The notes under the pieces are model-generated. The model was given only the letters and a program-made list of their open reading frames with translations, was not told the origin of the DNA and did not search any database. Below, one piece after another: positions 59,134-63,480 of a DNA stretch of 64,000 nt; position 1 is the first letter of the stretch, and each line of letters opens with the position of its first letter. The DNA comes from Chloroflexota bacterium (GTDB taxonomy: Bacteria > Chloroflexota > UBA11872 > VXOZ01). The stretch spans positions 324,915-388,914 of the forward strand of contig CATQHC010000002.1 in the NCBI GenBank assembly GCA_958295775.1, in the 5' to 3' direction. A program made the translations under genes and the position numbers.

Positions 59134-60111
59134 ATGATCAGCACGGTCCCAGGGAATTATCCGAAGATTGCAAATAGACCCGGCGGGCAGGCTTTGCGGC
59201 GTGCCATTAGTTCCTTTGACCGAGGAAGGATTGCGGCGGAAGAGCTTGCCGCCGTAGCAGACTCGGTCACGGTAGAGGTGATAGGAGAGCAGGAGCGCGC
59301 CGGCATTGACGTGATTACGGATGGGCAAGTCCGCTGGCAGGACCCGATTACGTATGTCGCCGGCAACCTGCAGGGGTATGAAATAGGCGGGCTCATTCGC
59401 TACTTCGACACGAACACGTTCTACCGGCAACCGGAGGCGACGTCAACAATTGCATGGCAGGGACCATTCCTCGTGCGTGACTACGAGTTCGCCCGCGACC
59501 ATGCCGCCAAGCCGCTAAAGCCCGTGGTCACCGGCCCTTACTCGGTCGCGAAACTTTCACTGCTCGGAATTTATGCCGACCTTGAGACGCTGGTGATGGA
59601 TACCGCAAAGGCCCTAAACCAAGAAATGAAGGCGTTGGCAGCGACGAATCCGGTGCTAATCCAAGTGGATGAGCCCGCTATAGTGTGGCACCGGTACAAG
59701 GACGACTGGGACATCTTCCGTGAGGCTATGGACGTGCTCATGGACGGCGTGGATGCGAAAACAGTCTTGCGCACCGATTTTGGCGATGCAACCGGATTAC
59801 CGGACTTCTTTGCGTTGCCGTTTCAGGGATTCGGCCTAGACATGGTGCATGGCAAGCAGAATCAGACGCTCATATCTGACTTTCCGGACGATAGAGACCT
59901 TATCCTCGGCATCATCGACGCCCGCAACGTGCGCATGGAGACCGAAGAGGCTGTAGTTGATTCTGTTACTTTGGTGACCCAGCACGTTGCCGCGGGCCGC
60001 TTAGCCGTTAGCCCGAACACGGGCTTGGAGTTTCTGCCGAGAGAAACAGCATATGACAAGCTGCAAAACATGGTACACGCAGTCAAGAAAGCACAGGAGG
60101 CTGTCGCTTAA
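59134..60111 (+). CDS. Core-MetE-type methionine synthase paralogue lacking zinc ligands
   Basis: A 325-residue TIM-barrel protein of the cobalamin-independent methionine synthase C-terminal family (core-MetE length). Family features are DVITDGQVRWQDPITY, KPVVTGPYSVAKLS, VLIQVDEPA and the final SPNTGLEFL. The positions that bind the catalytic zinc in MetE are lost: the HxC strand reads LRTDFGDATG and the late Cys loop reads SPNTGLEF. It is followed, two bases after its stop, by a second paralogue that keeps these ligands. It may be a structural partner or act on a different methyl donor or acceptor. ATG at 59134 follows AGGAG; the TTG at 59131 is less likely. Confidence 0.8.
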   Translation: MISTVPGNYPKIANRPGGQALRRAISSFDRGRIAAEELAAVADSVTVEVIGEQERAGIDVITDGQVRWQDPITYVAGNLQGYEIGGLIRYFDTNTFYRQPEATSTIAWQGPFLVRDYEFARDHAAKPLKPVVTGPYSVAKLSLLGIYADLETLVMDTAKALNQEMKALAATNPVLIQVDEPAIVWHRYKDDWDIFREAMDVLMDGVDAKTVLRTDFGDATGLPDFFALPFQGFGLDMVHGKQNQTLISDFPDDRDLILGIIDARNVRMETEEAVVDSVTLVTQHVAAGRLAVSPNTGLEFLPRETAYDKLQNMVHAVKKAQEAVA

Positions 60112-60113
60112 CG

Positions 60114-61094
60114 ATGGAAGGACTATGGACAACCCAAGTAGGGAGTTTGCCGAAGCCGCCGGCGCTCGCCAAAGCCCGCACTGACTTTGCCCGCGGCAAG
60201 TTGCCCCAAACAGAGCTGGTGGCATTAGAGCGCGAGTACACCAAGTTCTGGATGGACTTTCAGAATGAACTGGGACTCGACATTGTCGTCGACGCCGAGA
60301 TGTACCGCGGCGATATGGCAACATATTTTGCCGAGACGATGCAAGGCATGGAGATCAGTGGTCTCGTGCGTTCGTACGGCAACCGGTACTATCGCAAACC
60401 CATCGCAGTGGGTCCGCTGCAGCGCGTGAAGCCGTTTACGTTGGACTGGTGGCAGTATGCCCAGAACCTCACCGACAAACCCGTGAAGGGCATGATTACC
60501 GGGCCATACACGATGGCGGAGTGGTCGTATAACAACTACTACGCTACGCAGGAAGAATTCGTGCTTGCCATGGCCGCGGTGCTGCACGAAGAGGTGGCAG
60601 ACCTGGAGCGGGCAGGGGCACAATTCATTCAGATTGACGAACCGGCAGTCTCCACGCGGCCTGAAGACCTGCCGCTTGCCATACGGGCAATGGCGGTGGT
60701 CGTAGACGGCATTTCGGCTACGACGGGAACCCACATTTGCTATGGCGACTTCGAGGCAATCTACCCTAAGATGTTGGAAATACCGGTTGACGTCATCGAC
60801 TTAGAGATGGCCAATAGAGACTTTGATCTGCTCGATCTCTTCAAGCGACAGGCGCCCTTTTCAAAGAAACTGGCGATGGGCGTAGTGGACGTGCACAGCC
60901 ACGTTGTCGAAGACAAGGAGCAGGTAAAGGCAGGCATCTACAAGGGCCTGGACGTTGTGCCTGCAGATAGACTCTTCATCGATCCTGATTGCGGACTGAA
61001 GACCCGCACGGTGGACGAGGCGCAGGCCAAACTCGCTGTCATCGTGGCAGCGGTCAAGGAAGTCCGCCAAGAGCTGGGTCTGGACAACGCCTAG
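60114..61094 (+). CDS. Core-MetE-type methionine synthase with intact zinc site
   Basis: A 326-residue protein like the C-terminal half of MetE. Zinc ligands are present: H207 and C209 in GTHICYGDFE and C293 in IDPDCGLKTR, with the LEMAN glutamate between them. The N-terminal GSLPKPPAL, KGMITGPYTMAEWS and FIQIDEPAVST are family motifs. Single-domain core-MetE proteins of Dehalococcoides-type organisms transfer a methyl group from a methylated corrinoid protein to homocysteine; that role is inferred here. It is in an operon with the zinc-less paralogue just upstream. Confidence 0.88.
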   Translation: MEGLWTTQVGSLPKPPALAKARTDFARGKLPQTELVALEREYTKFWMDFQNELGLDIVVDAEMYRGDMATYFAETMQGMEISGLVRSYGNRYYRKPIAVGPLQRVKPFTLDWWQYAQNLTDKPVKGMITGPYTMAEWSYNNYYATQEEFVLAMAAVLHEEVADLERAGAQFIQIDEPAVSTRPEDLPLAIRAMAVVVDGISATTGTHICYGDFEAIYPKMLEIPVDVIDLEMANRDFDLLDLFKRQAPFSKKLAMGVVDVHSHVVEDKEQVKAGIYKGLDVVPADRLFIDPDCGLKTRTVDEAQAKLAVIVAAVKEVRQELGLDNA

Positions 61095-61426: not shown

Positions 61427-62638
61427 ATGCAACAGTTCATCGCCACGCAAGAATCTGTAAGTCGTCAATATCGCGGCTTGCAACGGCTGGCGTGGACAAT
61501 GCTGATCGCCAGCTTCCTCATCTTCGTAATCATAGTCATTCTGCTTCCGTACGCGTTTAACTGGGCTATTGAAAGAATTCGCCAAGATGTCTCTGTGTCG
61601 GTGCAAGTCATCAGCGGCCAAGTTTACGTTCTCGCCGCAGGTTCTCCCAGTTGGGTAGTGCGTTCTGAGTCCACGCAACTGAACCCCGGCGACAGCATTA
61701 GCACCCACGAAACGGCGCAAGCTTTTTTCGTCTTGCCAGACGGCAGTACCGTTCACATGTATCCCGAGAGCCAGCTAAAGCTCGCAGCGTCCAGTATTGT
61801 GCGCTATAGGCCCGAAAAGATGCAGATTGCATTGGAGCAGGAGCAAGGATACAGCCGCATTGCCATTGCCCCTGTCCTGGAACCCGAAGAGCGCGTTTTC
61901 ACCATACGCGCGCCGACACTCAGCGCGACGCTGCAAGAGGGTAGCTACGCCATAGAGGTGATTGATGAGTCTCGCAGCTCACTTGCAGCGCGCCATGGGA
62001 ATGCGATAGTTACTGACGGTCAACGCGCGTTGGAGATTGGCGCCGGGGAACGAGCTACTACGATGGACGGTCGCTTGCCCGCTGAACCGCTGCTCGCCGC
62101 GCAGGACTTGATCTTGATGGGCGACTTTACCGCGCTCTCCCCGGACTGGAAGGACATCTGGCGGGAAGAGGACCGCTCAGAGGGGCCGCCAAGGGGCAGA
62201 ATAACGCCACAGCCTGAAGGACTATACATAAAGCGCACGGGCAGAGGCAATGGCCATACTGTGCTTGTGCAACAGATCAACCGCCCCGTCTGGGACTTTG
62301 AAGAACTCAAACTCGTAGTTCGGGTGAAAGCAGTCTACCAGAGCTTGCCCGGGGGTGGCACTGCGGGATCTGAGTATCCGATCATGGTGCGGGTGTTGTT
62401 TCGAGATATCTCCGGCGGCGAGACCCCTTGGTACCACGGCTTCTATTACGACGAGCCCACGGACGAACGCTATTCCACTAGGAGTGCGACGCTCGTGCCC
62501 TGGGACGAGTGGTACTTGTACGAGATCGACCTGATCAAGTTGACGCCGCGGCCTACTTTCATTCGTACCATTGAAGTCGTGGCGACCGGATGGTCGTACG
62601 AGGGCGCCATCCAGCACATGAGTCTGGTTGGGGAATGA
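61427..62638 (+). CDS. Membrane-anchored FecR-like domain protein of unknown function
   Basis: A 403-residue protein with one transmembrane helix near the N-terminus (LAWTMLIASFLIFVIIVILL) and a large external part. Residues 60-200 resemble a FecR-type β-domain (LNPGDSISTHETAQAFFVLP, then an IEIGAGE-like turn). The last 150 residues are a β-rich region resembling carbohydrate-binding folds (LVVRVKAVYQSL, DEWYLYEIDLIKL). No catalytic residues are recognised, so a signalling or cell-envelope role is likely but unproven. ATG at 61427 is one base past the acylphosphatase stop; its own stop overlaps the next gene in an ATGA arrangement. Confidence 0.7.
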   Translation: MQQFIATQESVSRQYRGLQRLAWTMLIASFLIFVIIVILLPYAFNWAIERIRQDVSVSVQVISGQVYVLAAGSPSWVVRSESTQLNPGDSISTHETAQAFFVLPDGSTVHMYPESQLKLAASSIVRYRPEKMQIALEQEQGYSRIAIAPVLEPEERVFTIRAPTLSATLQEGSYAIEVIDESRSSLAARHGNAIVTDGQRALEIGAGERATTMDGRLPAEPLLAAQDLILMGDFTALSPDWKDIWREEDRSEGPPRGRITPQPEGLYIKRTGRGNGHTVLVQQINRPVWDFEELKLVVRVKAVYQSLPGGGTAGSEYPIMVRVLFRDISGGETPWYHGFYYDEPTDERYSTRSATLVPWDEWYLYEIDLIKLTPRPTFIRTIEVVATGWSYEGAIQHMSLVGE

Positions 62639-63480
62639 TAATCGTACTGGCTGGAAGTGCTGCCGTGGGCGAGAGTGTGGCCCGGGCACTTGCCCGTTAT
62701 CTACCGCAAACGACCGTGCTGCAACCCGATTACTTCGCCCCAATCAGAGAGCAAGTCGATTGCTCAGGTGGAGCGCCTGACGACATGCGAGAGGCGGCGT
62801 GGCTAGCCGAGACGCTTGCCGCGAGCGCGCGCAAGATCTCCGCTCACGGTGGCACCGGGGTTATCGTGCTGCCGCGATTGGAGAGTGTTCCTGCACTGAC
62901 GGTAGCCTTCGATCAAGACTCAGCGCCGCTCTACCTCTATCTCTTGCGCAAGCCTGCGCGTCACCAGGGGATATTCCGGAGGGGGGAGGTCATCGATGCC
63001 AAGGGCGGCGACACTGAGACTATGGCACAACAGATCTTTGAACTCACGACTGCAGGCAAGGGTCTGGTCCGACCCGCGCCGTCCGGTACCGGAGATTCTA
63101 GTCTGCTGCCGTCTGAGGGCGGCCCAAGTACGGGTGTGGACATAGTCGAGATTTCACGGATTGCGCGCATTGTGGAACGCTATGGCGAGCGGTTTCTCAA
63201 ACGAGTGTATACCGAGGCGGAGCAGGCGCTCTATCGCGGGCGGGTTCCGGAATTGGCGGCACGCTTCGCGGCCAAAGAAGCGATTTCCAAAGCCTTGGGT
63301 ACCGGAATTTGGGGTATTCGCTGGCGTGAAATGGAAGTCCTGCCGGACATGCGCGGCAAACCGTTGGTCTACCTGCACGGAGCTGCGGCAGCGCGGGCGC
63401 GCACACTCAATCTACGTCACTTTGCCGTAAGTTTGAGCCATAGCCGTGAGTTCGCGCTGGCGGTTGTGGTGGCTACATAG
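62635..63480 (+). CDS. acpS: P-loop-like domain fused to holo-ACP synthase
   Basis: A 281-residue fusion. Residues 1-160 look like a nucleoside/cytidylate-kinase-type P-loop fold, but Walker A reads GSAAVGES (7-14) with Glu in place of the essential Lys, so it should not hydrolyse ATP normally. Residues 165-281 are a full AcpS domain: TGVDIVEISRI with the metal Asp, RFLKRVYTEAE, FAAKEAISKALGTG with the metal Glu, and SLSHSREFALAVVV. AcpS transfers 4'-phosphopantetheine to acyl-carrier proteins. ATG at 62635 overlaps the TGA of the preceding gene by an ATGA, showing translational coupling. Confidence 0.85.
   Translation: MIIVLAGSAAVGESVARALARYLPQTTVLQPDYFAPIREQVDCSGGAPDDMREAAWLAETLAASARKISAHGGTGVIVLPRLESVPALTVAFDQDSAPLYLYLLRKPARHQGIFRRGEVIDAKGGDTETMAQQIFELTTAGKGLVRPAPSGTGDSSLLPSEGGPSTGVDIVEISRIARIVERYGERFLKRVYTEAEQALYRGRVPELAARFAAKEAISKALGTGIWGIRWREMEVLPDMRGKPLVYLHGAAAARARTLNLRHFAVSLSHSREFALAVVVAT

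Follow-up and report, generated by a model that had tools for sequence, protein, structure and literature searches.

The window, a 64,000-nucleotide stretch of a Chloroflexota genome, carries two adjacent genes on the forward strand, which we call A and B. We read them as the two putative subunits of a split cobalamin-independent methionine synthase (MetE):

59134..60111, + strand: gene A, ATG start, 325 aa, candidate zinc-less N-barrel-type subunit of a split MetE
60112..60113, + strand: two-base gap between the stop of A and the start of B
60114..61094, + strand: gene B, ATG start, 326 aa, candidate catalytic C-barrel subunit of a split MetE

The original prediction, made from the bare sequence, had described two neighbouring paralogues of about 325 residues, and the open reading frames bear this out: by Pfam and NCBIfam models, both belong to the MetE superfamily, with scores for MetE domains far over the cut-offs. 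Gene B matches Meth_synt_2 at 267.3 bits. Gene A scores higher for Meth_synt_1 (105.3 bits) than for Meth_synt_2 (98.9 bits), a narrow margin. That only the second gene would keep a zinc site was also correct. B has the predicted H207, C209 and C293 together with E231, completing the four MetE ligands; the aligned residues of A are R213, D215, D236 and T296, with no ligand kept. None of the five scanned neighbours of the pair in the window is a methionine gene. No riboswitch was found upstream of A, where just two sub-threshold snoRNA matches occur (E 0.57 and 2.6), and we set riboswitch control of the pair aside, tRNAs being the sole matches at gathering score in the window. At 62590-63477 lies one ORF with a holo-ACP synthase domain at residues 181-294, preceded by about 180 residues that match no family.

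Full-length MetE has two barrels, and a tree assigns one gene to each. In our 95-row tree, which is unrooted, a 100/100 branch places A with the N halves of MetE and the N genes of a diverged second pair (described below), and B with the MetE C halves, the C genes of the second pair and two single genes. The B rows hold together as one group (97/90), adjacent to the MetE C halves; the A rows do not form one group (3 changes), and the long branches are those of the single genes, two MetE rows and the second-pair rows. AlphaFold gave confident single-chain models of both proteins (pLDDT 96.6 for A, 94.1 for B). The best structural match of B is the C half of Thermotoga maritima MetE (1xdj 401-733; Z 39.6, rmsd 2.0, 322 residues aligned), with which the single-barrel structure 3rpd is tied at Z 39.4. 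For A, the best match is the N half of S. mutans MetE (2nq5 2-362; Z 37.1, rmsd 2.2, 317 residues aligned), tied in turn with the single catalytic barrel of 3rpd at Z 36.7, with MetE C halves at Z about 34. In sequence-profile scores, A even comes closer to the C half, the better conserved of the two, than to the N half: this holds for 11 of 12 full-length MetE proteins and for five MetE sequences from the PDB. Given the tie with 3rpd and profile scores that favour the C half, structure alone cannot decide which half A represents. What assigns it to the N half is its position in the tree, its lost zinc site and motifs typical of N barrels, RYFDTN and VDARN among them, and not overall similarity.

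The two genes travel together. Of 201 genomes sampled from the phylum, 14 carry an A-type gene (143 bits or more), and precisely these 14 also carry a B-type gene (380 bits or more), with A directly before B in every one; the threshold for A was our own choice, the next genome scoring 116, and the scores for B show a clear gap (382 vs 238 bits). Called by alignment-guided gene calling, greedy calling being poor in GC-rich contigs, the pairs overlap by 4 bases in nine cases and stand 2 bases apart in four from the window's genus, and one has an unsure start. Searching public genomes with the alignment of A-type sequences gave 236 relatives, of which we studied the best 80 loci. A B frame lies directly downstream of A in 77 of these 80; seven of the 77 are shorter than 300 aa, at contig ends or frame breaks, and at 39 of the 77 the called genes overlap by 4 bases. 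At two further loci (L128 and L132) B is found elsewhere in the genome, at 56-57% identity, and at L091 the 42 first residues of B are visible before the contig ends. Zinc-less paralogues standing alone in other genomes would have spoken against a two-subunit enzyme; a B partner was present in 80/80 of these loci, in three of them not as an adjacent full frame. Pairing of A and B thus looks obligate. By record title, and allowing that labels of metagenome-assembled genomes may be wrong, the best 80 records include Chloroflexota, Dehalococcoidia, Zixibacteria, Omnitrophota, Rokuibacteriota, Actinomycetota, Armatimonadetes, Planctomycetota, Dormibacteraeota and others, with a few archaeal entries.

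Conservation within each family follows the same division. Among the 14 B rows of the phylum, the His and both Cys ligands are present in all, and the Glu is present in nine and replaced by Ala in five (G091, G171, G163, G123 and G075). Among 50 B rows of the wider scan, H207 and C293 are kept in 50 each, C209 in 48 (Ala in 2) and E231 in 44 (Ala in 6). In the A family, 31 of 55 rows still have Cys at the position of the last zinc ligand. This resembles the N barrel of full MetE, in which Pejchal and Ludwig (PMC539065) describe that Cys as retained in most sequences. Residues R22, R89, N94 and R264 of A are invariant in 55/55 rows. Across seven comparisons each, dN/dS is 0.055-0.078 for A and 0.031-0.083 for B, rough values given that synonymous sites are near saturation in most comparisons. 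Purifying selection acts on both genes, and together with the conserved adjacency these low ratios indicate that the pair is more than a chance arrangement. That A has lost every zinc ligand might suggest a decaying duplicate without function; this is most improbable, as the selection data largely contradict it, as do the four invariant residues and the pairing with B across the 80 loci.

We then considered the methyl donor. Pejchal and Ludwig (PMC539065) named the folate contacts of T. maritima MetE, and most have counterparts here. W539 (W137 in B), R493 (R91) and the Asp and Met of the DMV motif (D67 and M68) are each kept in 50/50 B rows. At the equivalent of R496, R94 in B, the 50 rows have Arg in 32, His in 12 and Lys in 6. 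Two contacts fall in A, as conservative swaps: K104 corresponds to R89 and K18 to R22, both in 55/55 rows. Glu583 has no plain equivalent in B, where S180/T181 align and an insertion is missing, and the Arg15 contact could not be placed in the alignment. MTHFR genes adjoin some of the pairs. A stand-alone MTHFR gene directly precedes A in 2 of the 14 phylum genomes (G163 and G075), and an MTHFR domain lies within the available flanks of 7 of the best 80 loci, fused to a homocysteine S-methyltransferase in two loci shown in full. In a scan of 68 neighbours, hand-picked from 104 mostly by omitting short ORFs, MTHFR accounts for five, and the 25 families listed hold no other recurrent methionine partner. 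With most folate contacts present, Glu583 excepted, and MTHFR genes next to some pairs, methyl-tetrahydrofolate is the probable donor.

Genome-wide, MTHFR occurs in 46 of 50 split-MetE genomes, drawn from the 80 loci (G207 is one without it), and in 9 of the 14 phylum genomes with the pair (G123 is among those without it). Its co-occurrence is not specific and says little, since 11 of 12 genomes without the pair have MTHFR too. In the window's genus, a search with PF02219 found no MTHFR in 4 genomes, and a 9-row profile found none in six genus genomes at E 0.001, the best partial match having E 0.08. Of these six (G000, G033, G077, G149, G205 and G206), five are at least 95% complete. The window's genome also has no MetE frame longer than 426 aa and only homocysteine-domain stretches of MetH; three congeners have weak cobalamin-domain stretches of MetH. 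It does encode four S-methyl_trans proteins, one of them beside an FAD/GcvT oxidase, so methionine is perhaps made another way too. At L193:3438-6973, a homocysteine S-methyltransferase-like gene immediately precedes the gene for an FAD/GcvT oxidase of 816 aa; the two may form a unit for the breakdown of betaine to dimethylglycine, and betaine may feed methionine in this genome. GcvT-type frames there comprise a stand-alone frame of 369 aa (296 bits), two large fusions and a sarcosine-oxidase-gamma-like gene. A DmdA-like source of methyl-folate was rejected on frame lengths and scores only.

How the genus would supply the methyl group bears directly on the alternatives. The split-MetE fold might be kept while this genus uses another donor, or obtains methyl-folate from an unrecognised reductase or by import. 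The lack of a recognisable MTHFR while A and B are under purifying selection speaks for this, as does the presence of further homocysteine-methyltransferase-like genes; we nevertheless consider it unlikely, since the counted folate contacts are invariant across relatives that have MTHFR and relatives that lack it, the genus included. The suggestion in the original prediction of a heterodimer with a new methyl donor is not supported for this pair: the folate contacts are largely present, and the search that it had proposed, for the corrinoid iron-sulfur protein (CoFeSP), gave no match to PF03599 in 4 genus genomes. We retain a new donor as a minor possibility, given that the genus yielded no MTHFR either. 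The CoFeSP search also bears on the idea that B acts alone in the manner of MesB, fed by CoFeSP, with A as a regulator or spare. B by itself has the size of a core-MetE, and the single barrel of 3rpd fits it as well as MetE C halves do. Against this, A occurs without B at none of the 80 loci, and PF03599 matches among the 14 pair genomes are confined to G191 and G103, at 26-27 bits, just above the cut-off, inside stretches that the MetH model also matches. We regard this reading as very unlikely, and core-MetE, the name originally given to the pair, as wrong. What stands of the original interpretation is the two-subunit MetE, the most likely reading in view of the tree, the residues kept or lost in each gene and their apparently obligate pairing.

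A second N-like and C-like pair occurs in the window's genome (G000:C5:74055-76048; L007:8053-10109, - strand), and the other three genus genomes of the sample have orthologous pairs. Its C gene reaches 677 bits or more in each of the 4 genus genomes; no other genome of the 201 exceeds 255. Outside the genus, the nearest matches of this C gene are B subunits, at up to 43% identity, so the second pair looks like a duplicate of the split MetE. All four zinc ligands and the Trp persist in it, and R493, the Asp of DMV and the His of VDVH are lost. Low dN/dS ratios (0.126-0.150 for the N gene, 0.065-0.068 for the C gene) show purifying selection on both members. The pair is flanked by genes for a sugar-type ABC solute-binding protein and for an alpha/beta hydrolase; aldo/keto reductase and GFO/IDH/MocA genes lie upstream, and one congener has a PhyH gene downstream. 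We tentatively propose, as a rather improbable scenario, that the whole split-MetE unit was duplicated in the genus and that the copy was recruited to a sugar-uptake locus as a two-barrel zinc methyltransferase. With its zinc site and pterin-stacking Trp kept and other folate contacts lost, the copy might then methylate or demethylate a compound that the cell imports. If demethylation by the second pair loads folate, it could give a cell without recognisable MTHFR the methyl-folate for the pair in the window.

Other relatives were seen along the way. Further N-like genes fall on the A side of the tree, at L063:8129-9031 (-) in G183 and L065:6222-8311 (+) in G199; in G199, a C-like neighbour keeps the His, Cys and Cys zinc positions, making another diverged two-barrel pair. 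A single MetE-like gene at L008:6186-7247 has His, Cys, Glu and Cys at the zinc positions and neighbours that by eye are Gfo/Idh/MocA-like, and another, at L009:7614-8882, has its top NCBIfam score with PRK06520.

Taking the gene pair, the tree side and residue pattern of each gene, the pairing and the purifying selection together, we conclude, with a probability of roughly 0.78, that A and B encode the paired subunits of a cobalamin-independent methionine synthase split over two genes. B would form a (beta/alpha)8 barrel with the sites for zinc and homocysteine and most of the folate contacts. A, the sister barrel, would have no catalysis of its own; it would dock onto B face to face, shutting the cleft, and provide basic residues for folate binding. 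The predicted heterodimer would then pass the methyl group from methyl-tetrahydrofolate directly to zinc-bound homocysteine. This reading does not explain where the methyl-folate comes from in the window's genus. Two loose ends accompany it, the MTHFR not found in the genus and the diverged second pair; a conserved split MetE without recognisable MTHFR makes a clear test case for the origin of the methyl group of methionine.

Three known systems invite comparison. The core-MetE of Dehalococcoides, MesB (Deobald 2020, PMC7005905), is likewise an enzyme of the C barrel only and of similar size; it differs in working without an N-barrel partner and in using methylcobalamin. The CoFeSP of the Wood-Ljungdahl pathway, a trait of its hosts, is the protein for which our PF03599 search had no match in 4 genomes of the genus, and Dehalococcoidia genomes are described in the same paper as lacking metF. 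Canonical MetE, as described for T. maritima by Pejchal and Ludwig (PMC539065), shares with our pair the two barrels, the dead zinc site of the N half, the same zinc ligands and most folate contacts. It is a single chain of about 750 residues with a linker, in contrast to the two genes here, and its Glu583 is not kept. Closest is the split MetE described by Price, Deutschbauer and Arkin in 2021 (PMC7857596), with PF1268/PF1269 of Pyrococcus furiosus, for which a methyl pterin was predicted as donor. Both of our proteins are within its 400-aa limit for the components, and A satisfies the rule that the N component scores higher for Meth_synt_1 than for Meth_synt_2, albeit with model versions newer than those of the paper. 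For the catalytic component the paper asks for at least 200 bits by phmmer to PF1269; what we have for B is its place beside the MetE C halves in our tree. The components are usually adjacent, as they are here at 14/14 phylum and 77/80 wider loci; the His, Cys, Glu and Cys ligands of the catalytic component correspond to H207, C209, E231 and C293 of B; and the window's genome has neither a full-length MetE nor a full MetH. A difference is that the window's genus has no MTHFR that we could find. The arrangement itself has been known since 2021, mainly from archaea: the paper calls it primarily archaeal and names Sulfobacillus sp. hq2 as a bacterial case, and within a limited literature search we found no report of it in Chloroflexota. 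What our analysis adds is its bacterial spread and the pairing in every locus examined (the best 80 of 236 relatives, and 14 phylum genomes). Genes annotated as single or duplicate methionine synthases in these bacteria may, given that spread, be subunits of one enzyme, and a split MetE described as primarily archaeal extends, by record title, to Chloroflexota and many uncultured bacterial lineages.
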